From contig QFXH01000016.1 in the NCBI GenBank assembly GCA_003402345.1, forward strand, positions 1-33,726: DNA of 33,726 bases. Reading direction: 5' to 3'. The position numbers were made by a program, and so were the translations under genes. The notes beneath the pieces were generated by a model. The model was given only the letters and a program-made list of their open reading frames with translations. It was not told the origin of the DNA and made no database searches. The stretch's first letter is position 1; every line of letters starts with the position of its first letter. This document shows positions 7,048-31,419 of this stretch, one piece after another. This DNA is from Candidatus Nitrotoga sp. MKT. Lineage in GTDB: Bacteria; Pseudomonadota; Gammaproteobacteria; Burkholderiales; Gallionellaceae.

Positions 7048-8310
7048 ATGAAATTTTACCTCGGTCTCGACTTTGGCACATCCGGCGCACGCGCTTGTGT
7101 TGTGGACAAAGTTGGGGCTATTAGCCATGAAGATCATATCTTCTATCCTGATGCGGCTATACAAACTCATCTGGATTGGCGCGAAGCACTGCATACACTG
7201 CTCAAACGGCTACCCACTACTATTGCAGCGGAATTACAAAGCATCGCTATTGCTGCTACTTCTGCCACAGTATTATTGTGTGACCAAGAGTTGGAGCCAA
7301 CTACTCCCGCTTTGCTCTACTTCGACAACCGTGCACAAGAAGAATCGGAACAGCTAGAGCAGCTTGCTCCACCGGGTCATATTGCTTGTAGCGCAAGTTC
7401 AGGGTTAGCCAAGTTCATGTGGCTGACAAGGCACATCGAATTTTCAAATGTAGCGCACTTTCTGCATCAGGCGGATTGGCTGGCTGCGCTGCTTACCGGG
7501 CTAGGTGGTGTCAGCGATTATCATAATGCCCTTAAGAGTGGCTATGATGCAGAGCGCCTGTGCTGGCCAGATTGGATCAAGAGTTTGCCGCATGCCTATT
7601 TGCTGCCGCAAGTTGTCGCCCCTGGATCAAACATTACCAACATCAGTTCATTTGTGGCGCAGCATTTCAAGATTAACCCGGCGTGCATGGTGTGTGCGGG
7701 CACTACTGACAGTATCGCCGCTTTTATTGCCACAGGTGTGCATGAACCCGGCTCAGCGGTCACTTCGCTAGGCACTACGGTAGTGCTCAAACTGCTCTCG
7801 ACGCAACGTGTAGAAGCAGCACAATATGGCGTGTACAGCCATCGTTTTGGTAATTTATGGTTGGCGGGAGGGGCATCCAACGCAGGTGGCGGCGTATTGA
7901 GGCAATATTTTAGTGATTCGCAGATCGATGAACTTAGCCGGCATATTGATCCGGTTACGGATAGCCCTTTGGACTATTACCCGTTGCCGCGAGCTGGCGA
8001 ACGTTTTCCAATTAACGATCCTTCCTTGACACCACGTCTTACCCCGCGTCCTGCAGACGACATACTTTTTTTGCATGGCTTGTTGCAAGGTTTGAGCCGC
8101 ATCGAAGCGGCGGGTTACACCAAGCTGGCTGAACTTGGCGCAAGCCCGCTTAAATCTGTTATCACCACCGGCGGCGGAGCAAAAAATCAAGTGTGGGGAA
8201 AAATACGCGAACGCTTGTTAGGTGTGCCACTGTCGGTAGCGGAACACATTGAAGCTGCCTATGGCGCGGCCCTGTTGGCAAGACGTGGTTTATTAATAAA
8301 CAATCTTTAA
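7048..8310 (+). CDS. Short FGGY-family carbohydrate kinase (ribulose/xylulose kinase-like)
   Basis: A 420-residue ATP-dependent sugar kinase of the actin-like fold. The N-terminal phosphate motif is LGLDFGTSGARACVVD (residues 5-20), the hinge region shows CAGTTDSIAAFIATG (about 218) and SLGTTVVLKL, and the adenosine motif is TTGGGAKNQVWGKIRERLLGVPL near residue 375, followed by EAAYGAALLA. It is clearly shorter than typical xylulokinases (about 490) or ribulokinases (about 550). It resembles the compact plant and cyanobacterial type, for which D-ribulose has been shown as a substrate. No pentose transport or isomerase gene lies nearby. No convincing Shine-Dalgarno precedes the ATG. The substrate remains unproven. 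Confidence 0.88.
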   Translation: MKFYLGLDFGTSGARACVVDKVGAISHEDHIFYPDAAIQTHLDWREALHTLLKRLPTTIAAELQSIAIAATSATVLLCDQELEPTTPALLYFDNRAQEESEQLEQLAPPGHIACSASSGLAKFMWLTRHIEFSNVAHFLHQADWLAALLTGLGGVSDYHNALKSGYDAERLCWPDWIKSLPHAYLLPQVVAPGSNITNISSFVAQHFKINPACMVCAGTTDSIAAFIATGVHEPGSAVTSLGTTVVLKLLSTQRVEAAQYGVYSHRFGNLWLAGGASNAGGGVLRQYFSDSQIDELSRHIDPVTDSPLDYYPLPRAGERFPINDPSLTPRLTPRPADDILFLHGLLQGLSRIEAAGYTKLAELGASPLKSVITTGGGAKNQVWGKIRERLLGVPLSVAEHIEAAYGAALLARRGLLINNL

Positions 8311-18844: not shown

Positions 18845-20410
18845 ATGTCCCACCAAAAAATCCTGATTCTCGATTTTGGTTCGCAATATACCCAGCTTAT
18901 AGCCCGCTGTGTGCGTGAGTCTCATGTTTACTGCGAGTTGCATCCATTCGATGTAAGCGATGAATTCATTCGCGATTTCAAGCCGGCTGGCATCATTCTT
19001 TCGGGCGGCCCCAATTCAGTGACGGAAGGTGATGCCCCGCGTGCACCGCAAGCGGTATTTGAACTGGGCGTGCCGGTGCTGGGTATTTGCTACGGTATGC
19101 AAACCATGGCCGCGCAATTGGGTGGGGAAGTGGAAGTTGGCTTGGTGCGCGAATTTGGCTATGCGGAAATCCGTGCACGCGGCCATTCAAAATTATTTTG
19201 CGACATTCAGGATCGTATCAACGAGGCAGGCCACGGTTTGCTGGATGTATGGATGAGCCACGGCGACAAGGTCACGCTGCTGCCGCCGGGCTTCATGGTG
19301 ATTGCTTCCAATGCAATCACGCAGATTGCCGGTATGGCCGACGAGGCACGCCGTTTCTACTCAGTACAATTTCATCCGGAAGTGACCCATACTCCGCAAG
19401 GCAAGGCGATCATCAGCCGCTTCGTGCATGACATTTGCGGCTGCGGGCAGGATTGGAACATGCCCGATTACATCGGTGAGGTGGTAGAAAAAATCCGCGC
19501 CCAAGTCGGCCAGGAAGAAGTCATCCTCGGCCTGTCTGGCGGAGTGGATTCTTCCGTGGCCGCAGCATTATTGAATCGTGCCATTGGTACGCAACTCACC
19601 TGCGTATTTGTGGACAACGGCCTGTTGCGCTTGAATGAAGCTAAGCAGGTTATGGAAACTTTTGCCCAAAATTTGGGCGTGAAAGTTATCCATGTTGATG
19701 CTGGCGCGGAATTCATGAAGCACTTGGCAGGTGTATCTGACCCAGAGCAAAAACGCAAAATTATCGGGCGCGAGTTTGTCGAAGTATTCCAGCGTGAAGC
19801 CGCCAAATTGCCACAGGCTAAATGGCTGGCGCAAGGCACCATTTATCCTGACGTGATCGAATCGGCTGGCGCCAAAACCAAAAAGGCACACGCCATCAAA
19901 TCACACCACAACGTCGGCGGCTTGCCCGATACCTTGCATCTTAAGCTGCTGGAACCGTTGCGTGAACTATTCAAGGACGAAGTGCGCGAACTCGGCGTGG
20001 CGCTCGGCTTGCCGCGCGACATGGTGTACCGTCACCCATTCCCGGGACCGGGGCTGGGCGTGCGCATCCTCGGCGAAGTCAAGCGGGAGTACGCCGACTT
20101 GTTGCGCCGTGCTGATGCAATTTTCATCGAAGAGCTACATACGTCCGGCTGGTATGAGAAAACCGCGCAGGCATTTGTTGTATTTCTGCCGGTAAAGTCG
20201 GTGGGCGTGATGGGTGATGGCCGAACTTATGAATGGGTGGTGGCGCTGCGTGCGGTGCAAACACAGGATTTCATGACCGCACATTGGGCAGAATTGCCGC
20301 ATGCCTTGCTGGCCAAAATTTCTAACCGCATCATCAATGAAGTGCGAGGCATTAACCGCGTGGTTTATGATATTTCCGGAAAGCCGCCTGCCACTATTGA
20401 GTGGGAATGA
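18845..20410 (+). CDS. guaA: GMP synthase (glutamine-hydrolysing)
   Basis: This enzyme makes GMP from XMP, glutamine and ATP. The 521-residue chain has the N-terminal glutamine amidotransferase domain with the nucleophile Cys82 in GICYGMQ and the His-Glu pair in QFHPEVTHT. The ATP pyrophosphatase domain follows with the PP-loop LSGGVDSS (about residue 226), and then the C-terminal dimerisation domain ([17 protein letters not shown] to PPATIEWE). The end PPATIEWE is the conserved one. ATG at 18845 gives the conserved [16 protein letters not shown] start. It completes the IMP-to-GMP route begun by guaB and ends 49 bases before a rho-independent terminator. Confidence 0.98.
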
Positions 20411-20483: not shown

Positions 20484-20515
20484 CTTTTATGTCGGAAATA
20501 TCAGGCAATGGCAAG

Positions 20516-20570
20516 TAGCGGCAAGCAGGTGTTTTTCATGGGTTTATCAATGGTATATTTTTTGATGCCA
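20516..20570. repeat. Degenerate repeat, copy 1 (partner at 25958-26015)
   Basis: TAGCGGCAAG followed by a T-rich run, CATGG, TTTAT, GGTA and GATGCCA is shared in the same order with 25958-26015. By hand alignment about three quarters of some 55 positions agree. In one frame both read SGK-x-VFFM...MP, so they may be relics of the same gene. It lies in the 302-base gap between guaA and the DUF2130 gene, which otherwise holds only the guaA terminator. Confidence 0.55.
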
Positions 20571-20712
20571 TTAATAAATATCATTGAATATACAGGCAAT
20601 CTGGCATATAGACATGATGAAGCTTCGATGCGACACTCCCCTGCACTGTACATAGCGCATTCCAGCAGCAGGTAACAGTGAAGCCATTATTCACGTGTGA
20701 ATAGGAGATTTA

Positions 20713-22014
20713 ATGACAGAACCAACAATCATTTGCCCGAGTTGTAACACCGAGATCAAACTTAACGAATCGCTCGCCGCTCCGCTGATCGCGGCAACAC
20801 GCAAGCAGTTCGAGCAACAACTGGCGCAGAAGGATAATGACATCGCACAGCGCGAACAGGCTATGCGCGACAAGGAAAAGCAGCTTGCAGAAGACAAGCG
20901 CAAACTTGACGGTCAGGTGGCCGATCAAGTCGCGGCACAGTTGAAAGCAGAACGCGTCCGCGTTATTGCAGAAGAATCGAAGAAGGCCAAACTTGCCAGT
21001 GCCGTCGAACTGGAAAATAAGGCACGTGAACTGTCCGAATTGCAAGAGGTGCTTAAAACAAACAATGAAAAACTGGCCGAGGCACAAAAGACGCAAGCCG
21101 AGCTCATCAAGAAACAGCGTGAACTCGATGATGCCAAGCGCGAGCTGGAACTTACGGTAGAAAAGCGGGTGCAGGACGGATTGACCGACGTCCGCACGCA
21201 AGCCAAAAAAGAAGCCGAGGACGAACAGAAGTTCAAGGTAATGGAGAAGGAGCAGACCATTGCTGCGATGCAGAAACAGATTGAAGACCTCAAGCGCCGG
21301 GCCGAGCAAGGATCACAACAATTGCAGGGTGAAGTCCAGGAGCTGGAGCTTGAAAATCTGTTGCGCATCAAATTTCCTTTCGATGCTATTGAGCCAGTAC
21401 CCAAGGGGGAGTTCGGCGGGGATGTGCTGCATCGCGTTGTTGGCGCAGGCGGCCACCCCGGCGGCACCATTTTGTGGGAATTCAAGCGCACCAAAAACTG
21501 GAGCGATGCCTGGCTGGTAAAGCTTCGCGGAGACCAGCGCACCGCGAAGGCAGAAGTTGCCGTGATCGTGAGCCATATATTGCCGAAAGGTGTTGAAACC
21601 TTCGAAATGGTAGACGGCGTCTGGGTAACACATCCCCGCGCCGCATTGCCGGTGGCGATGGTTTTGCGCCAGTCATTATTGGAACTCGCCCTTGCACGAC
21701 AGTCCATAGAAGGCCAGCAGACCAAGACCGAAATGGTCTACCAGTACCTCACCGGCCCGCGTTTTCGCCAGCGCGTTGAAGCCATCGTTGAAGCTTTTTC
21801 TACCATGCAGGAAGACCTCGACAAAGAAAGAAAAGTCATCATGAAGCAATGGGCCAAGCGAGAAGAGCAGATTGAGCGGGTGATGGGGGCAACGGTGGGG
21901 ATGTATGGCGACTTGCAGGGGATTGCGGGGAAGTCGTTGCAGGAGATTGAGGGGCTGGAATTCCCAGCATTGGAAGCAAGTAATACAACACCCAAAGCGG
22001 TGACAAATGGATAA
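20713..22014 (+). CDS. DUF2130 domain-containing protein
   Basis: A 433-residue cytoplasmic protein. The N-terminus has a CPSC pair (a partial zinc-ribbon look), followed by a long coiled coil (about residues 30-215, rich in K, E, Q, A). The DUF2130 domain then follows, with GGDVLHRVVGAGGHPGGTILWEFKRTKNWSDAWLVKLRGDQR. Its D...E-x-K pattern fits the PD-(D/E)XK nuclease superfamily, to which DUF2130 has been related. A second helical stretch (MQEDLDKERKVIMKQWAKREEQIERV) ends the domain. The exact role is unknown; genes of this family often lie in variable genomic regions near restriction systems, as here. It overlaps the next small ORF by 8 bases. A GGAGATTTA site precedes the ATG. Confidence 0.9.
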   Translation: MTEPTIICPSCNTEIKLNESLAAPLIAATRKQFEQQLAQKDNDIAQREQAMRDKEKQLAEDKRKLDGQVADQVAAQLKAERVRVIAEESKKAKLASAVELENKARELSELQEVLKTNNEKLAEAQKTQAELIKKQRELDDAKRELELTVEKRVQDGLTDVRTQAKKEAEDEQKFKVMEKEQTIAAMQKQIEDLKRRAEQGSQQLQGEVQELELENLLRIKFPFDAIEPVPKGEFGGDVLHRVVGAGGHPGGTILWEFKRTKNWSDAWLVKLRGDQRTAKAEVAVIVSHILPKGVETFEMVDGVWVTHPRAALPVAMVLRQSLLELALARQSIEGQQTKTEMVYQYLTGPRFRQRVEAIVEAFSTMQEDLDKERKVIMKQWAKREEQIERVMGATVGMYGDLQGIAGKSLQEIEGLEFPALEASNTTPKAVTNG

Positions 22015-22234
22015 GCATTGGATTGTCTCGGCGTTGGAATACCTGACTCAAAGCCTTGAGCCGGTTCCATATGAAATCAACGAAATTGATTGGAAGGCCA
22101 GTTTATCGCCCGAAAAGAAGCGCGCCCAGGTTTTTCGCGTGATTCGGGATGCCTTGGATGGCGGGCGCATCAAACGTAAAGACCCACATTCGAAATCGTC
22201 TAAATTTACTGAATATCTGCCTTTATTGGGCTAA
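22007..22234 (+). CDS. Probable internally deleted AlbA_2 (Schlafen-like) ATPase, 75 residues
   Basis: The first 35 residues (SLEPVPYEINEIDWKASLSP) look like the opening of AlbA_2-type ATP-binding proteins. These usually continue with a conserved region of several hundred residues, which is missing here. The last part (FRVIRDALDGGRIKRKDP, then SKFTEYLPLLG) resembles the extreme C-terminus of the same proteins, which typically ends in a DALxxGxIKPxDP...YVPFW-like segment. The simplest reading is one gene that lost its middle by an in-frame deletion, leaving head and tail joined near residue 37. It overlaps the DUF2130 gene by 8 bases. Family assignment is from memory of motifs and needs a search; a genuine small protein is the alternative. 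Confidence 0.5.
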   Translation: MDKHWIVSALEYLTQSLEPVPYEINEIDWKASLSPEKKRAQVFRVIRDALDGGRIKRKDPHSKSSKFTEYLPLLG

Positions 22235-22369
22235 TATTTTTACTTGACTCAAAACGGCATATCTAAAAAAAATACATATAATTCAAATGCTTTTTATTTG
22301 ACTGGGAAACGGCGCAGCAATTTTATGACCCAAAAATGTTGAGTCCGGATTATAAAGGGAGCATCAAAG

Positions 22370-24376
22370 ATGAAGACAAATATTCAAGGGCTAGTCAAAT
22401 CACTTGATTTGAAGCAAACGCAAGGCATGATGCCTTTATTTGAAGCGATTTCAAATGCAATGGATGCGATTGCTGAGGCGGGTAGAGGTTTGAATGCGGG
22501 TAATATTGATATTCACCTAATTCGACGCACAGATTTAGGATCGAAATCAGATGAACTGCCTTTGATCAATTCGGTGATTGTGATGGATGATGGGGTTGGC
22601 TTTACGGATGAAAACCTCAAGTCGTTTGAAGAAGCCTACACTCAAGCAAAGGTCAAACTGGGCGGAAAAGGTGTTGGTCGTTTTACCTATCTGAAAGTCT
22701 TCAATCAAATTCAAATCGAAAGCAATTTTCAGGACTCTGCCGGATGTATAACTTCACGGAAATTCAGTTTCTCAATTGATAACGAGGTAGGTGATGTTAT
22801 TAATAACCCTGCCACTGCGGGCACGAAAACTGGAACTATGGTTTCCTTAGCAGAGCTTGATTCCTCATATGTGGCGGCGTGGCCTCGTGATGCTCACGCT
22901 GTCGCACAGCGCGTGGTCTCTCACTTTTTAATTCGATTCGCGGGGCGAAGCGCACCTGAAGTCCTGCTTCACGATTCAGGTATTGCGCCAATCAATCTAC
23001 TAACGTTATTTAATGAAACCGTTTTGCCAAGTATTCAAGCTGTGGATTTTTCTGTCGGGGAGCATCATTTTCACTTGCAGGTTTTAAGACAGAAGGGAAG
23101 TCGGGACGCGCATGAGATTAGCTACTGTGCTCGTGCGCGAGAAGTGTTTCAAGTTACTTTGAAAAAACTGTTGCCTGAGCTGCCGCAGACTTTTTTGGAA
23201 ACTGACAACACGCATTACACACTTAAAGTGCTGGTCACTGGTGAGTATCTCGATTCACATGCAAGTACGATTCGGACGGAAATACTTTTTAATCCTGACA
23301 GCGAGGATTTGGTAACTGACGAATCATTGATAACCCGCAAAGAGCTTGATACCGAGATTACTAAGACACTACGCACACTTTTGGTCGAGGATCTTCGTAT
23401 AACAAATCAAGAAAAGATGGATAGCATCGAGCACTTCATAGCCACTGATGCACCGGAATATCGCGTTCTGCTGAGTAACCAATATAGAGAAATGATCGAG
23501 CGAGAAGTACCCGCGGGCGCCACTGGCGACAAGCTGGATGAAGCTCTTCTCAGAATCAAGCGCAAAATTGAAGATCAAATTCGCGCGGAGGGTTCAGAAA
23601 TAAAGGCACTGGTTGATTCTGATTCGTTCGATCATTATGAAGCCAAAATGAATGAACACATTGCTCGAATCAACGACATGGGGAAATCACAACTAGCCAG
23701 CTATGTAGCTCACCGTCGTTCAATCTTGGATTTACTTGATATTAGCCTGAAGAAAAGTCGCGTAGACGAGAAGTACCGCCTTGAAGAAGTATTGCACAAC
23801 ATGCTTTTTCCGATGCGGCAAACCTCGAAGGATGTCTTTTTTGAGCAGCAAAATCTATGGGTGATTGACGAACGACTCTGCTACCACACCATCCTAACCT
23901 CAGACAAGAAAGTAAACTCTATAGCTGGGCTTGAGAATACTCACGGAAAAGAGCCTGACATTCTGGCGTTTTTTTATGACAAGCCCACTGGTGTGAGAGA
24001 GCCAGAAGATGGAAGTGGTGCGGTGGTAATCATCGAGTTCAAACGCCCTGGACGAGACAACTACTCAAGTGATCCAGCACAACAAGTGCTAGACCATTTT
24101 GTAGCCATTGAGGACGGAAAAGTGAAGGATGTGGATGGGCGCATAGTCAACCCTTCGAACATACGTTATTACGGATATTTCATTGCTGACCTCACCCCGA
24201 CGCTGAAAAAACAGATGCGTTTCAACTATCAGCAATCAGTTGATGGCGAGGGTTACTTCAAAACTCTGCCTGGTGGAAATGGTTATGTGGAGATAATTTC
24301 ATACGATAAGTTGTTACGTGACGCGCAACGTCGTAACAGGGTTTTATTTGAGAAATTGGGTTTGCATAAGCGTTGA
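22370..24376 (+). CDS. GHKL ATPase fused to a PD-(D/E)XK nuclease-like domain
   Basis: A 668-residue intact protein. The N-terminal GHKL (Hsp90/MutL/MORC-type) ATPase shows the N-box EAISNAMDA (Glu25, Asn29), the G1 box MDDGVGF (residues 72-78) and the glycine-rich GGKGVGRF (98-105). A middle region of strands and helices follows (about 190-390), then a helical, charged linker (about 400-460). The C-terminal domain has EPDILAF (Asp530) and VVIIEFKRPGRD (Glu556, Lys558), the D...E-x-K signature of restriction-type nucleases, followed by QQVLDHFVAIEDG. The pair of domains fits an ATP-gated DNA clamp and cutter, as proposed for MORC-like proteins of bacterial restriction systems. It lies 88 bases upstream of a methyltransferase fragment. 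No disruption is seen, and GGGAG precedes the ATG. Confidence 0.85.
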   Translation: MKTNIQGLVKSLDLKQTQGMMPLFEAISNAMDAIAEAGRGLNAGNIDIHLIRRTDLGSKSDELPLINSVIVMDDGVGFTDENLKSFEEAYTQAKVKLGGKGVGRFTYLKVFNQIQIESNFQDSAGCITSRKFSFSIDNEVGDVINNPATAGTKTGTMVSLAELDSSYVAAWPRDAHAVAQRVVSHFLIRFAGRSAPEVLLHDSGIAPINLLTLFNETVLPSIQAVDFSVGEHHFHLQVLRQKGSRDAHEISYCARAREVFQVTLKKLLPELPQTFLETDNTHYTLKVLVTGEYLDSHASTIRTEILFNPDSEDLVTDESLITRKELDTEITKTLRTLLVEDLRITNQEKMDSIEHFIATDAPEYRVLLSNQYREMIEREVPAGATGDKLDEALLRIKRKIEDQIRAEGSEIKALVDSDSFDHYEAKMNEHIARINDMGKSQLASYVAHRRSILDLLDISLKKSRVDEKYRLEEVLHNMLFPMRQTSKDVFFEQQNLWVIDERLCYHTILTSDKKVNSIAGLENTHGKEPDILAFFYDKPTGVREPEDGSGAVVIIEFKRPGRDNYSSDPAQQVLDHFVAIEDGKVKDVDGRIVNPSNIRYYGYFIADLTPTLKKQMRFNYQQSVDGEGYFKTLPGGNGYVEIISYDKLLRDAQRRNRVLFEKLGLHKR

Positions 24377-24464
24377 ATCTTTTAGGGGATATTGTCTGGA
24401 CTGATGCAACTGGCGTGAGATTATTTATTGAAAAGCTTGTTATGCCGGAGAATAGAGTGACGCA

Positions 24465-24799
24465 ATGAGCAAAAAGCAAAAACTAAAACTCGTGAATCTG
24501 TGGAATCTGCGGACAATGCTTTTGCCGTTGATGCTGTTGGTGATATTTTCGACAACCAACTCATCTTCGGCGACAACTTGCTGGCGTTGAAGGTTTTGGA
24601 GGCGGAGTTTGCGGGGAAGGTGAAGTGCGTGTTTATTGATCCGCCGTACAACACCGGCAGCGCTTTCACACATTACGACGACGGAGTGGAGCATTCGATC
24701 TGGCTGTTGCTGATGCGCGACCGGCTAGACATAATCCGGCGGTTGTTGACGGAGGATGGTTCGTTGTGGATCACGATTGATGACAACGAGGCGCATTAA
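24465..24799 (+). pseudogene. N-terminal fragment of a DNA adenine methyltransferase (type III Mod-like)
   Basis: Starting at ATG 24465, the first codons (MSKKQK) run into a one-base frameshift at about 24478-24490. The downstream frame then continues RESVESADNAFAVDAVGDIF and the methyltransferase start: FGDNLLALKVLEAEF, the catalytic motif IV DPPYNTG (codons from about 24638), and LLMRDRLDIIRRLLTEDGSLWITIDDNEAH. The match ends at a TAA (24797-24799) exactly where the family would go on with YLK. The remaining two thirds, including the AdoMet-binding motif of this class, are missing. It is a dead piece of a restriction-modification or stand-alone N6-adenine methyltransferase. Confidence 0.85.
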
Positions 24800-24865
24800 A
24801 GCTTGAATTGTTAGATGCGCCCATATGTGTAATGGCAGTTGCTCAAAACGTGAATTGTATTTTCA

Positions 24866-25970
24866 ATGAATTTCGACTTTGCCACTCTTGATCTATTGCG
24901 CCAAAGCCATCCAGCGTGGCGTTTGTTGCGCTCGGATCACGCACCGTTGGTAGCGTTTTTGCAGTGAGTGTTTATCGTGCCGAATGTGCGTGTTATGGCG
25001 CAAGCTGATTTGGCAGAATCACTCGAAGACGAACTGTTTGCCTTGCGCGAGAGTCTAGGCTCAGATGCTTTTCCCAAGTCTGCACTTGAATACCTCAACG
25101 ACTGGGCGAGTACTGAGAAGGGGTGGTTGCGTAAATGCTATGTTCAAGGTTCGGATGAACCGCATTTCGATCTTTCTCCACCGACCGAAAAAGCGATTAT
25201 TTGGCTTGCAACGCTCACCTAGCGCAGCTTTGTTGGCACTGAGTCCCGCTTGCTTACGCTGTTCGAGTTGCTTAAGCAAATGGGTGAAGGATCTGAATCC
25301 GATCCTCAACGCGTGTTGCTGAATTACACAAACGGCGTGATGGAATTGATGGGGAAATCGAGCAAATATTATCGGGTGATATCCCGCTGCTAGATAACAC
25401 CGCATTGAAAGACCGCTTCCAGCAATTCACGCAATTGGCGCGGGAGCTGCTGAGCGATTTTCGTGAGGTAGAGTATAACTTTCGTGGTTTGGATCGGCGC
25501 GTGCGGGAGCGTATCGTACTGTGGCAAGGCTCAAAAGGAACGCTACTGGAAGAGATCATGGGCGAGCGGGATGCAATTTCCGACTCGGATCAGGGCGCAG
25601 CTTTCGCGCATTCTGGGATTTTTTGATGTCCAGTCGACGGCAGGAGGAACTGTCGGTATTGCTTGAGCGTGTGTTGGCACTGCCACCTGTCATTGAACTC
25701 AAGCCTGACAGCCTAACACGTCGTGTACATTATGATTGGCTGGAGGCTGGAGAACATACACAGCGGATCGTCGCCTAACTTTCGCAGCAATTATGACGTT
25801 TTCTTGACGACCAAGCTTGGTTGGAAAACCGCCGCATCATGGACATTCTGCACGGTATCGAAACTAAAGTGTTAGCAGTGCGCGAATCTCAGCCGGTAGG
25901 TGTGGTGATGGATATTGCAGATACGGCTACTGACATTGAGTTACCAATGCACGCTAATAGCGGCAAGTAA
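24866..25970 (+). pseudogene. Broken DUF3375 gene (JetA-like subunit of a Wadjet system)
   Basis: Joining three frames gives a nearly continuous DUF3375 protein: LLRQSHPAWRLLRSDHAPLV at the start, then VFIVPNVRVMAQADLAESLEDEL, FPKSALEYLNDWASTEKGWL, RSFVGTESRLLTLFELLKQM, DRFQQFTQLARELLSDFREV, SFRAFWDFLMSSRRQEEL, RRVHYDWLEAGEHT, and LDDQAWLENRRIMDILHGIE. It is disabled by stops at 24965, 25220, 25776 and 25794 and by frameshifts near 25308 and 25593. The last third of the protein is missing after TDIELPM, where a degenerate repeat begins. DUF3375 is JetA (MksF-like) of the Wadjet anti-plasmid SMC system; jetB, jetC and jetD are not in the window. Several of the stops could have arisen by a single C-to-T change. 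Confidence 0.85.
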
Positions 25971-26015
25971 GTTTTTTTCATGGTTTTATTGACGGTACAG
26001 TCTTTTCAGATGCCA
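25958..26015. repeat. Degenerate repeat, copy 2 (partner at 20516-20570)
   Basis: This stretch begins at the point where the DUF3375 similarity ends and shares TAGCGGCAAG, the T-run, CATGG, TTTAT, GGTA and GATGCCA in order with the sequence just downstream of guaA. It may mark a deletion junction. The bases from 26016 to about 26150 show nothing I can name. Confidence 0.5.
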
Positions 26016-26149
26016 CTCGTTCATCGTAATACCATTGCAAAAAATAGGGTTAGACGATGACATAAAATATGAATAAGTTAAATAAACACGCGAATTATAG
26101 CGTTTTTATTTGATTCCATAATTATGGTATCAAACCACCGGGGGACGCA

Positions 26150-27010
26150 TGCTGGTGGACACAAAATTACGGAATCCAAGTTTGAAATCAAGGTATGCAA
26201 GGTCAGTGATCGAGATGATCTTATGTCGCTGTTTTGACCACAGGCGCGGTATTGCGCTATAACTACGGCATCAACGGACGGCGGGAGGCACTAATGGTCG
26301 GGCATTATGTTGTTGGGGGGCTGACACACTGACGGACGTGGAAGCTTGGGGACAGTCCGCGCATGGTGCGAGAGGCTTCTCCGTCAAGTAAGAGGCGAGT
26401 TGACGGCTAACGCGCGCAACGGCTTTATGCCCTCGCCACAAGCGGCGCTACAAGGTCATGACGGACTAGAAACATGGGGCGCGGAGCATCTGTTCGCCAG
26501 AAATTTCACGCCGATGACGCCGAACAGATTTTGATGTCGGACACACCTATTTGTAGACAGATGAAGGCTGGCTGTATCCTGGCTTATCCTGCGCGACCTG
26601 TTAACTGGGAAATCGTAGGCTGGTCGTTGAAGCCGGGCATGCAGCGGATATCGTGATCAACGCGCTGACTCTGGTTCAGGAAGAGGCCGGCCTGGGGCTG
26701 CTGCATAACTTCGTCGTGGGGGGGCATAAGCCAGTACGCTAGCTATGTCTTTCAGGAAGCTCAAGAGGGTCGGCATGGCTTGTTCGATGAGCCGGGCAGG
26801 AAACTTGCCTAGGATAACGCTCCGATGTAGAACTGGTTCAACAGCTTCAAGAACGAGCGAGTGCATGGAATTTGTTATGCCACCACGCCGGTATGAAGGC
26901 CGCCAAATTTGAATGTCGAGGTCTTTTACAAACGGAAGTACTAGCATTCGACCCTTGGCTACAGGTTGCCAGTTCAGTTGCTGAAGAATTGCATCAGAGG
27001 TGCAATATCA
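26150..27010 (+). mobile_element. Decayed IS3-family insertion sequence
   Basis: Pieces of IS3-type orfA (TESKFEIKVCK, about 26170) and orfB can be read in shifting frames. They include NFTPMTPN (26500-26530), TDEGWLYPG (26560-26582), KPGMQ and DIVINALTLV (26630-26680), then LLHNF, SQYAS and MACSMSR (26700-26790), NWFNSFKNERVHG (26831-26869), EVFYKRKY and HSTLGYR (26945-26965). These follow the order of the DDE transposase core and its C-terminus, but stops and frameshifts are everywhere; between MACSMSR and NWFNSF alone the frame changes once. The ends are approximate, since no clear terminal inverted repeats were recognised. The element is dead. Its orientation is the same as the broken genes before it. 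Confidence 0.75.
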
Positions 27011-27302: not shown

Positions 27303-28253
27303 TTAAACTGTAACCGCAACGCAAGCTTGCGTTCCAAGATCAACAACTTCATGGAATTCATCTACTATCTTGATACAGATGTCATGCTTTCCTGGTCCGA
27401 GCAGATCCAAGCCAACAGTATAGCCATAGCTACCATTTAACAAATGTATCCCAGAGTAATGCTTACCGTCTATATAAAGATGACCATGCTCATCGTTGTA
27501 TATAATAGTCGGTGATTGATAACGGTAAGTACCCTCAGGAGCCAATTTTGTGTAACCGGCATTTTGAGGCTGGCGAGTCGTATCTACAAAATTTCCACCA
27601 GGTGTGATGGCATATTGAAGCCTGATTTTTGCCGGTTTGGTACCTGCTCTAGTATCAGTGTTTTCTACGATGGCATTCATTGTTACTGTTGTACCTTGTC
27701 CCCTTGGTCCGTCAGCATTAACAAAGTATTGTTTAGTATAGGTTTTGCTTGGGCTGGTTTCTGATGCATGATAACCAAGACCTGTCTCTATTGGAGCTAC
27801 GCAATAAGGAGCTGCGCTAGCTATACAGCCTCCGGTACCGTTTGCCCTGTCGCCTGCCCATGCTTCGTTAAAGTCTGTATCGTACAGAGGCTTGCCATCT
27901 ATATATGGAACAGCAGTTTTAAAGTCTGGGGTAAATTTGGTTGGCTGTTTACCATGATAACTGGCTTGACCAGAACCGCCTTCTTCTTTCTGCCATTGAT
28001 CCAAATGATGCTTCCCAATGTTATATTGGCCTTGGGTTTCATATTGGTATTTAGGAGCTACTTCACCACCGCCGGGAGGATAGTTACCTGGTATGCCCAG
28101 TTGCGCTCCAGGATGCAGATCGCCAGCTTGGGGATCGGATGCAAACGAACCTGCTGGAGGAAGAAAATTGAATTCAGCATGTGGGCCGTCATATGCCATG
28201 GCAGCCGGGGAACTAATAGCAAGCAGTAGTGCCAGTGAGTTAACTCTGCGCAT
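27303..28253 (-). CDS. Unknown secreted protein with two cysteine pairs
   Basis: A 316-residue protein with a clear signal peptide (MRRVNSLALLLAISSPAAMA, cleavage before YDGPH), so the mature chain of about 296 residues is exported. I do not recognise it. The first part is low in structure and rich in P, G, Q and H (residues 20-110). The middle has GGCIASAAPYCVAPIETG with two cysteines. The last 130 residues look like a beta-sandwich, with IRLQYAITPGGNF, HGHLYIDGKHYSGIHLL and LLGPGKHDICIKIVDEFHEV, and two more cysteines (DICIK, TQACVAV). The histidine clusters could bind metal. The ATG at 28253 has AGGAG 9 bases upstream; an earlier start at 28298 is unlikely. It stands alone, with a long leader and a strong hairpin downstream. 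Confidence 0.85.
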   Translation of the reverse strand: MRRVNSLALLLAISSPAAMAYDGPHAEFNFLPPAGSFASDPQAGDLHPGAQLGIPGNYPPGGGEVAPKYQYETQGQYNIGKHHLDQWQKEEGGSGQASYHGKQPTKFTPDFKTAVPYIDGKPLYDTDFNEAWAGDRANGTGGCIASAAPYCVAPIETGLGYHASETSPSKTYTKQYFVNADGPRGQGTTVTMNAIVENTDTRAGTKPAKIRLQYAITPGGNFVDTTRQPQNAGYTKLAPEGTYRYQSPTIIYNDEHGHLYIDGKHYSGIHLLNGSYGYTVGLDLLGPGKHDICIKIVDEFHEVVDLGTQACVAVTV

Positions 28254-28393
28254 AATTATTACTCCTCTAAGTAAATAAATAAAAAAAGATAAACCCACTC
28301 GTACCGTCCGCGGGGGCTCTTAGAAACTTCTAACAGCTGGGTCAGGGTAACATAATATTGGTGAGTATTGCAAAAAATATTTATACTTTTGCG

Positions 28394-28593: not shown

Positions 28594-31419
28594 TTACCTG
28601 ATTATTTGCAATACCTGCTTCAGGTAAGTGCCAGTCACGCTTTCTGGATTAGCGGCAATATCTTTGGGCGAGCCTTGCGCGATGATATGCCCGCCCCCCT
28701 CGCCACCCTCAGGCCCGAGGTCTATGATCCAATCGGCGGTCTTTATTACGTCAAGGTTATGTTCGATTACTACTACGGTGTTTCCTTGGTCACGTAGCTT
28801 TTGAATGACTTTCAGAAGTAAAGCGATATCATGGAAATGCAGGCCGGTTGTGGGCTCGTCTAAAATATATAGCGTTCGTCCTGTGTCGCGCTTGGAAAGT
28901 TCCAGTGATAATTTGATGCGTTGTGCTTCGCCGCCAGATAGCGTAGTCGCGCTTTGCCCCAATGTGATGTAGCCGAGCCCCACGTCGAGCATGGTTTGTA
29001 GTTTACGTGCGATGATTGGCACCGGCTTGAAAAACTCATGCGCATGTTCTACGGTCATTTGCAAAATCTGGTGGATGTTCCGGCCCTTGTATTGCACCTC
29101 TAGCGTTTCGCGGTTGTAGCGCATGCTATGGCATACGTCGCATGGCACATAGAGGTCAGGCAAGAAATGCATTTCAACTTTGATCACGCCATCGCCTTGG
29201 CAGGATTCGCAGCGTCCACCTTTTACGTTGAACGAGAATCGTCCCGGGCCATAGCCGCGCTCGCGCGATTGCGGCACTCCGGCGAATAGCTCGCGGATGG
29301 GAGTGAACAGGCCGGTGTAGGTGGCGGGGTTAGAACGTGGGGTGCGCCCGATGGGCGACTGATCTACGTTAATGACCTTGTCAAAAAATTCCAGTCCGTC
29401 GATTTTGGCGAACGGCGCGGGCTCGGCGTTGCTTCCATATAGGTGTTGTGCAACAGCGTGATAGAGCGTGTCGTTGATGAGGGTGGACTTTCCGGAACCA
29501 GACACGCCTGTTACGCACACCAGCAGGCCAACAGGTAAATCAAGCGTAACTTGTTTCAGGTTGTTGCCACATGCGCCTTGAATTTGCAGCATGCGTTCCG
29601 GATCGGGGGGGAGATATTTTTTTGGCGCTTCGATGTTGCGCCGACCGGAAAGGTAATCACCCGTCAGTGATTGCTGGTTGACACACACTTCTTGCGGCGT
29701 GCCTTGCGCGACGATCATGCCCCCATGCTCGCCCGCACCGGGACCCATGTCCACTACGTAGTCGGCAGCCTGGATGGCATCCGCGTCATGTTCCACTACG
29801 ATTACGCTGTTGCCCATGTCACGCAGGCGTTTCAGTGTGCCCAGCAAACGATCATTGTCACGCTGATGCAGGCCGATGGAAGGTTCGTCTAATACATACA
29901 TCACACCGGTCAGGCCGGAGCCAATTTGCGAGGCTAGGCGGATGCGCTGAGATTCGCCACCGGACAAGGTCTCTGCCGAACGATCTAACGACAGATATTC
30001 CAAGCCGACGTTGTTGAGAAAGGTCAGGCGGCTGGCGATTTCATCCACGATTCTTTCCGCGATGGCCTGCTTGTGACCTGGAAGCTTCACCTGTTGGAAG
30101 AAAGTGAGCGCCTGCTTCAAAGGTAATGCACTAAGCTCATAAATGGCATGGTCTGCGATGCGCACATTGCGGGCTTCCAGGCGCAGGCGCGTCCCCTTGC
30201 ATTCAGGGCAGATGCAGGTGTTGAGATGTTTCGCCAGTTCCTCGCGCACAGTAGGTGACGTGGTTTCCTTGTAGCGCCGCTCCAGATTATTGATGATGCC
30301 TTCGAATGCATGCTCGCGTAACGTGGGTTTGCCACGCTCGTTGAGATAGCTGAATGGGATTTCTTCCTTGCCGCTGCCGTATAAAATAATTTGCTGTACT
30401 TTTTCCGGCAGGCTTTCGAAAGGACGTTCCAGATCGAAATCGTAATACTTGGCCAGGCTGTCCAGCATCTGGTAATAAAACTGGTTGCGTCGATCCCAGC
30501 CTTTGATTGCCCCAGAGCTTAACGACAATTGTGGGAAAGCCACAATCCGTTTTGGATCGAAAAAACTGATGCTGCCCAACCCATCGCATTTCGGGCAGGC
30601 ACCCATCGGGTTGTTGAACGAGAACAAGCGCGGTTCCAGTTCTGGCAACGAATAATTGCAGATTGGGCAGGCAAACTTGGCGGAGAATATATGTTCTTTA
30701 CCGCTGTCTATTTCCACTGCCAATGCGCGCCCTTCGGCATGGCGCAATGCGGTCTCGAATGATTCCGCCAGGCGCTGCTGGTTGTCTGCGCTGGCTTTTA
30801 GGCGATCCACCACAATCTCAACAGTGTGTTTCTTGTTCTTTGCCAGCGTGGGCAGCTTGTCTATCTCATGCACGGTGCCGTTTACGCGCAGTCGCATAAA
30901 ACCTTGCGCACGCAACTCATTAAACAAATCGACTTGCTCGCCTTTGCGCTCAATGACCAATGGAGAAAGAATCATGATGCGCGTGTCTTGTGGTAGTTGC
31001 AGCACATGATCCACCATCTGCCCAACGCTTTGGGCCTGTAACACCAGATCATGCTGCGGGCAATATGGGTCACCTGCGCGTGCAAACAGCAGGCGCAGGT
31101 AGTCGTGAATTTCCGTCACCGTGCCGACAGTAGAACGTGGGTTATGCGAGGTGGCCTTTTGCTCAATGGCGATGGCAGGTGACAAGCCCTCGATTAAGTC
31201 CACATCCGGTTTTGCCATTAGTTGCAAAAACTGGCGTGCATAAGCGGACAGCGATTCGACATAGCGTCGCTGTCCCTCTGCATATAAAGTATCAAAAGCG
31301 AGGGAAGACTTACCGGAACCCGACAATCCAGTGATGACTACAAGTTGATTGCGTGGCAAATCGAGGCTGATGTTTTTCAGGTTGTGCGTGCGTGCGCCAC
31401 GTATCTTAATACTGTCCAT
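28594..31419 (-). CDS. uvrA: Excinuclease ABC subunit A (UvrA)
   Basis: The damage-recognition ATPase of nucleotide excision repair, acting with UvrB and UvrC. The 941 residues match the usual length (E. coli 940). There are two ABC ATPase modules: Walker [10 protein letters not shown] (about residue 31) and [10 protein letters not shown] (about 640), signatures [14 protein letters not shown] (about 488) and [12 protein letters not shown] (about 830), and Walker B motifs YVLDEPS and YILDEPT. Zinc-binding cysteines are seen in [11 protein letters not shown]...CPKCDGLG and in [27 protein letters not shown]. It diverges from the MFS gene across 66 bases. No LexA-type site (CTGT-N8-ACAG) was found in that gap, unlike the E. 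coli uvrA-ssb arrangement. Confidence 0.98.

Follow-up and report, generated by a model that had tools for sequence, protein, structure and literature searches.

Iyer, Abhiman, and Aravind described the paraMORC3 proteins in 2008 as GHKL ATPases with an S5 domain and a C-terminal RE-fold nuclease carrying an E-D-ExK motif (PMC2292703). The genes are prevalent in proteobacteria and bacteroidetes and lie in restriction operons, with a subset standing alone. The account given there of this subset leaves open whether the standalone proteins have taken on a new function or have their partners elsewhere in the genome (PMC2292703). A 2025 study of VcSduA from Vibrio cholerae describes a standalone single gene that blocks phages and places it in Shedu type I-D. 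The activity of VcSduA is lost on mutation of the ATPase residue Glu27 or the nuclease residue Lys557, and the protein is reported to act independently of neighboring genes (PMC12137116).

The locus considered here lies in a contig of Candidatus Nitrotoga sp. MKT, the analyzed stretch of 33,726 nucleotides being referred to as the window. Its protein shares with VcSduA, as far as described, an N-terminal GHKL ATPase, a middle domain, a C-terminal PD-(D/E)xK nuclease, and the single-gene layout. The catalytic residues Glu27 and Lys557 of VcSduA have likely equivalents in Glu25 and Lys558 of the window protein, at nearly equal positions, a kinship drawn from architecture and residue positions and not from sequence alignment. 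The likeness to paraMORC3 lies in the architecture and the E-D-ExK motif, likewise by the 2008 description rather than by alignment. The window protein is of the paraMORC3 architecture, which now falls within Shedu type I-D; the family is already known and tied to virus defense, and the part worth following is the history that leads from a cassette member to an orphan gene. The gene and its domains are the following.

22370..24376, + strand: gene of the paraMORC3 / Shedu type I-D-like protein, 668 aa (by translation, alignment, model, and profiles), with approximate domain limits of ~1-200 for the GHKL ATPase, ~201-470 for the putative S5-type and helical middle part, and ~470-668 for the predicted SduA-type nuclease
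23771..24373, + strand: predicted nuclease domain with Asp530, Glu556, and Lys558 (codons at 23957, 24035, and 24041)

Translation of the 668-codon frame at 22370-24376 (+) shows no internal stop, and an open run of this length has a chance of about 1e-13 given the frequency of stop triplets in the window. A promoter scan gives 3 promoter-like sites, compared to 4.6 expected by chance. The motifs MDDGVGF and GGKGVGRF occupy residues 72-78 and 98-105. In the family alignment of 43 rows, reduced to 40 distinct ones after removal of 3 duplicate copies (the window protein and 39 others, with identities to it down to 23%), Glu25, Asn29, Gly77, Gly101, Gly103, Arg104, Asp530, Glu556, and Lys558 are invariant. 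Glu472 is likewise invariant across the 40 rows and may represent the first E of the paraMORC3 nuclease motif E-D-ExK. Asp74 varies, with D in 21, N in 17, and T in 2 rows. A prior sequence-only reading had named the GHKL boxes and the Asp530/Glu556/Lys558 signature in one uninterrupted frame, and all of them are found at these residues.

A single-sequence Pfam search places HATPase/GHKL matches just below the cutoff, PADLOC returns only a weak match to TmtA (E 0.0098), and a single-sequence phmmer search against the PDB gives no match. In PHROGs, the protein matches phrog_6203, a phage family of unknown function (3e-11). The structure model used was built from 40 diverse rows and reaches a mean pLDDT of 84.9; an initial model, based on 20 close relatives, reached only 57.7 and was discarded. 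Foldseek comparison of the model with the PDB yields 243 matches at an E value of 0.001 or better, the best 50 of which are all GHKL proteins, namely, TRAP1/Hsp90, GyrB/ParE, TopoVI-B, and MutL. The alignments of the 50 matches listed span 363 to 528 columns, with low whole-query TM-scores of 0.21 to 0.34. An N-terminal GHKL ATPase with conserved ATP-binding motifs is present, as seen from the invariant residues, the near-cutoff Pfam matches, and the Foldseek result. Because the structural targets have a two-domain makeup of GHKL and S5, the model also suggests an S5-type domain after the GHKL domain, at the level of the fold only. The MORC S5 motif GhXhhpXXRhl occurs in none of the 40 rows, which rules out a MORC protein proper. 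The link to restriction systems that the earlier reading had attributed to Iyer and Aravind is correct for paraMORC3, not for MORC proper.

The C terminus of the window protein alone is unmatched in Pfam, SduA_C included, and a profile search of PDB sequences for the nuclease returns only 7 matches, all with E values of 0.21 or worse. An hhalign comparison of a paraMORC3 C-terminal profile (last 201 residues of 48 members, 44 kept after filtering) with 14 SduA_C domains (13 of 17 search hits and one from the distant locus L029, four hits being excluded as partial or weak) gives a probability of 95%, an E value of 2.9e-8, and a score of 56.8, with the ExK motifs aligned. One hundred column shuffles reach at most 17.8, and residues 1-200 and 201-470, used as control regions, score 11.8 and 12.0. 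This comparison of profiles, which finds what the single sequence does not, shows homology of residues 470-668 to the Shedu nuclease SduA_C (DUF4263), the nuclease domain being the part shared with Shedu SduA; a non-nuclease fold, considered beforehand as the outcome that would speak against a nuclease, is not what the profiles return. Classical SduA is shorter, as in the 459-aa protein at L029 7619-8998, in which Pfam finds only SduA_C. Two further proteins, at L115 and L116, combine GHKL-like motifs (by eye) with a weak Shedu-type C terminus and stand outside the family of the window protein. The SduA_C match of L115 is just above the Pfam cutoff and that of L116 below it, both being among the weakest SduA_C hits, and the paraMORC3 family HMM does not match L115.

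The window protein is probably a paraMORC3 defense protein of the Shedu type I-D-like kind, predicted to combine an ATP-gated DNA clamp with an SduA-type nuclease and most likely to act alone. The S5-type middle part and the coiled arms would form a dimeric clamp around DNA, and ATP binding would close the dimer on foreign DNA and license the nuclease. The C-terminal SduA-type, metal-dependent nuclease would then cut the DNA, so that phage or plasmid DNA would be restricted directly.

The window clade is tied to a type III restriction-modification cassette, in contrast to the reported independence of VcSduA from its neighbors. Patterns derived from the window protein picked up 19 related loci in the genome_contigs collection, and neighbors were tabulated by tblastn with one reference protein per gene at an E value of 1e-6. 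Among these loci, Mod and Res are each found at 15, an SNF2 helicase at 13, an AIPR protein at 12 (L003, L004, and L012 included), and all five genes at 11; the truncation of the L011 Res by the contig end and the identity of only 26% of the L009 AIPR are to be kept in mind, as both are counted. The order at L014 is SNF2-AIPR-paraMORC3-Mod-Res, with adjacent genes overlapping or a few bases apart. No SNF2 gene lies in the 10 kb upstream at L011, and the upstream sequence at L009 extends only 1.4 kb. In the cassettes of L017 and L018, an AAA protein is inserted; those of L002 and L013 lack AIPR and encode a KwaB-like protein. These KwaB-like (Kiwa) genes lie at L002 7107-8045, with a Pfam match, and at L013 8986-9939, 48% identical to the L002 copy. 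At L002 8060-8086, an apparent vestigial Mod start is situated upstream of the real Mod start, a sign that accessory genes may have been inserted immediately ahead of mod. In the close relatives, paraMORC3 is probably an extra effector beside a type III restriction-modification system. A type III restriction operon can include a Shedu-type ATPase-nuclease as a recurrent component.

mzaABCDE-like systems resemble this cassette in combining an AIPR protein and a MutL/MORC-type protein at one locus, as far as their description shows (PMC9523054). The helicases differ, being a DrmD-like SNF2 protein and a type III Res in the cassette of the window clade. The AIPR protein of L014 matches AbiU in PADLOC (8.8e-23) and MzaE only weakly (3.6e-7), and the scanned cassette proteins of L014, L018, and L007 show no match to the Pfam family Z1, which we take to be the marker of MZA systems. 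DISARM was considered for the DrmD-like SNF2 (PADLOC) and set aside, as the other L014 cassette proteins lack a DISARM match among the matches listed. The exact order SNF2-AIPR-paraMORC3-Mod-Res was not found in the literature searched, though it may have been described before.

In the window itself, the gene appears to sit on a genomic island near guaA, judged from the following sequence features.

18845..20410, + strand: guaA (name by eye), the insertion neighborhood of the island, with the GAGTGGGA core at 20399
20511..20563, + strand: left copy of an imperfect direct repeat of 53 nt, situated where the segment that genome G099 lacks has its left edge
20713..22014, + strand: open DUF2130 gene, 433 aa, matching nearly the whole Pfam profile
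22007..22234, + strand: 75-aa open reading frame overlapping the end of the DUF2130 gene, no Pfam family
24465..24799, + strand: dead 5' stub of a type III DNA methyltransferase gene (Mod), cut after Mod residue 127
24866..25960 (outer limits by eye), + strand: dead remnant of JetA (DUF3375, Wadjet), in three frames with stops
25953..26005, + strand: right repeat copy (77% identity), where colinearity with genome G100 resumes
26222..26398, + strand: integrase-like remnant beyond the right repeat copy, resembling genes at L016 and L013 in their N-terminal part
28594..31419, - strand: uvrA (name by eye), right border of the variable interval

The comparison of the island rests on three genomes, that of the window, G099, and G100, the latter of the same genus as the window genome. 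In G099, guaA and uvrA are 2.2 kb apart with colinear flanks, and the window additionally carries 20563-26566, the right repeat copy lying 0.56 kb inside this additional stretch. The gap in G100 measures 45.6 kb and holds a different paraMORC3, 52% identical, ~1 kb from guaA. In the other genomes of the 19 loci, guaA and uvrA are on different contigs, far apart, or, in G110, 22 kb from each other in the same orientation, and a full guaA was not found in G103 and G109. The 3' end of guaA is reported as an island site used with P4-type integrases (PMC7775301). The L016 and L013 genes that resemble the integrase-like remnant look by eye like P4-type tyrosine integrases; no second attachment core was found at the window island. 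At 27303-28298 (-), the window encodes a protein of 331 aa without a Pfam family, whose start resembles a signal peptide by eye; the protein is also found beside uvrA in G099 and G100.

The Mod stub, whose ATG is in another frame than the rest, is 94% identical to the Mod of L002 over 86 aa and 90% identical in DNA over 261 nt. The JetA remnant is matched by Pfam and PADLOC over 24968-25778. By tblastn, SNF2, AIPR, and Res have no detectable trace in the window, and AIPR is absent from the closest relative, L002, too. JetA matched no locus but the window in tblastn and is ruled out as a cassette partner. The right-hand neighbors are dead, as the sequence-only reading had stated. Its notion of decayed partners holds for the Mod stub, a relic of a partner, and not for JetA, which belongs to a different system (Wadjet). 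Its description of the gene as the surviving core of a decayed defense island fits the island and not the cell, which keeps an intact sister cassette elsewhere. Within the island, paraMORC3 is not the sole intact gene, as the left neighbor DUF2130 is open. A 48-aa DUF2130 scrap, 90% identical, occurs in the island of L002 at 8132-8275.

The tree joins the 20 rows close to the window protein in one group with full support, with a long-branch warning among the distant rows. Orphans, comprising 4 of the 19 loci and the window, occupy two places on this tree, so by parsimony the orphan state would have arisen by two changes, one in the window and one in a four-member subclade. The window copy is sister to the cassette-bearing L002. 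The orphan subclade of L015, L016, L019, and L020 (support 100/100) spans Comamonadaceae, Oxalobacteraceae, and Gallionellaceae, with L020 on a contig of Candidatus Nitrotoga CP45; its join to L011 is weak (82/70). Loss of the cassette is shown in the window, where the Mod stub remains, and can be deduced for the subclade from its nesting among cassette rows. The flanks of L015 extend only 5.1 kb and 2.4 kb, and type I restriction genes lie ~4 kb upstream of the orphan at L019. A 272-aa gene without a Pfam family stands directly upstream of the orphan paraMORC3 at L016 9099-9914 and L020 9079-9897, the two copies being 82% identical. Cassette members and orphans coexist in a single clade, and one orphan lineage extends across three bacterial families.

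An orphan could be a gene whose function was lost along with its partners and which has simply not yet acquired a stop. The identity of 90% in DNA between the Mod stub and L002 allows for a recent orphaning, as such a reading needs. Against it, the window branch shows no excess of changes (10 polarized changes, compared to 11 for L002), and invariant sites are kept: among 324 positions that are constant across 18 outgroup rows, the window alone deviates at 2 and L002 alone at 1. At the decay rate of the JetA remnant, ~9 lesions would be expected and the chance of none is ~1e-4, a rough figure resting on 5 lesions counted by eye in 1.1 kb of a gene that may have arrived broken or died earlier. 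Comparison of the window and L002 genes by three methods gives a dN of 0.054-0.059 and a dS of 0.54-0.76; by domain (one method), dN amounts to 0.079 in the ATPase, 0.058 in the middle part, and 0.023 in the nuclease, the lowest value. The low dN/dS may stem for the most part from the time in the cassette, before orphaning. No relaxed selection is seen in the window copy, the orphaning itself being left undated, and we regard loss of function as improbable. Recent decay of the partners and independent selection for the protein, offered beforehand as alternatives, are not exclusive, as the Mod stub is little decayed and the protein is without relaxed constraint.

At C6:140970-152410, the same genome contains an open sister cassette of the order SNF2-AIPR-AAA-Mod-Res, with a GmrSD-like gene after it. 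An SMC-like AAA ATPase of 769 aa occupies the slot between AIPR and Mod. L002 holds both paraMORC3 and a relative of this ATPase (33%). In the sister region, at L098 3200-16425 (C6:139200-152425), an integrase-like gene (by eye) adjoins. At L099 5509-10473 (C6:165509-170473), there is a second type III-like methyltransferase of 534 aa, followed by a 924-aa gene matching Res weakly. An analogy of paraMORCs to SbcC/Rad50 ATPases in restriction contexts is remarked on in a paper on HEPN proteins (PMC3710099), and a swap of paraMORC3 and the SMC-like ATPase in one slot would fit that remark.

The orphan might work in trans with the sister cassette, whose Mod would mark self and nonself. In favor of this, the window Mod stub and the sister Mod share 93% identity over 85 aa, the homologues of SNF2, AIPR, Mod, and Res in this cassette are open, and no second paraMORC3 was found in the genome. 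However, the sister slot is filled by the SMC-like ATPase, so the cassette looks complete, its proteins are only 55-61% identical to those of the L014 cassette (27% for AIPR), and VcSduA is reported to be active without its neighbors (PMC12137116). We consider such a split system unlikely, if somewhat less so than a functionless gene. As the local Mod is dead, recognition by the window protein would be either methylation-free, most likely so as with VcSduA, or dependent on methylation supplied by the sister Mod. With the local type III system lost, the paraMORC3 defense protein of the window most likely acts alone, as VcSduA does. The coexistence of an orphan and a sister cassette in one genome makes the question of the standalone paraMORC3 proteins directly testable.

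More tentatively, and possible at best, SNF2-AIPR-X-Mod-Res might constitute a distinct multi-gene defense system with interchangeable ATPase effectors in slot X, where orphaned effectors, the one in the window among them, keep working, either on their own or guided by the methylation that a sister cassette sets in the same cell. Candidates for slot X in this scheme would be paraMORC3/Shedu type I-D, the SMC-like AAA ATPase, or both with the KwaB-like protein. If true, this would be a modular defense system that sheds free-living effectors.

Relatives of the window protein are sparse, and many lie on plasmids, on virus-like contigs, or beside restriction genes. Within the family, 5 of 158 genomes carry one, and within the class, 2 of 369 (the window's own genome counted in both); relatives also occur in 58 of 72,556 plasmid records and in 1 of 50,697 phage records; one scan of viral_contigs gave no relative. 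A housekeeping DNA-repair protein of the MutL kind, to which the resemblance of the GHKL part to MutL, gyrase, and Hsp90 might point, is highly improbable with this sparse distribution and these mobile or restriction-linked contexts, and such a role is rejected. Homologues confined to a housekeeping context without defense genes, the pattern named in advance as contrary to a defense role, are not what the survey shows.

For the more distant relatives, at 55 loci on 53 contigs or records with flanks of varying length, tblastn found no match to Mod or Res. The distant loci come from plasmid, phage, and viral collections and the 19 close loci from genomes, so the contrast may partly reflect the collections. 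Among annotated plasmid loci, no single neighbor recurs throughout. At L029 806-11013 and L038 182-9013, a distant paraMORC3 closes a type I hsdR-hsdM-hsdS operon, and at L029, a classical Shedu gene immediately precedes it. On two Rhizobiaceae plasmids, a gene annotated as ScpB lies directly upstream of a distant paraMORC3 (L039 6183-6887 and L040 6222-6902).
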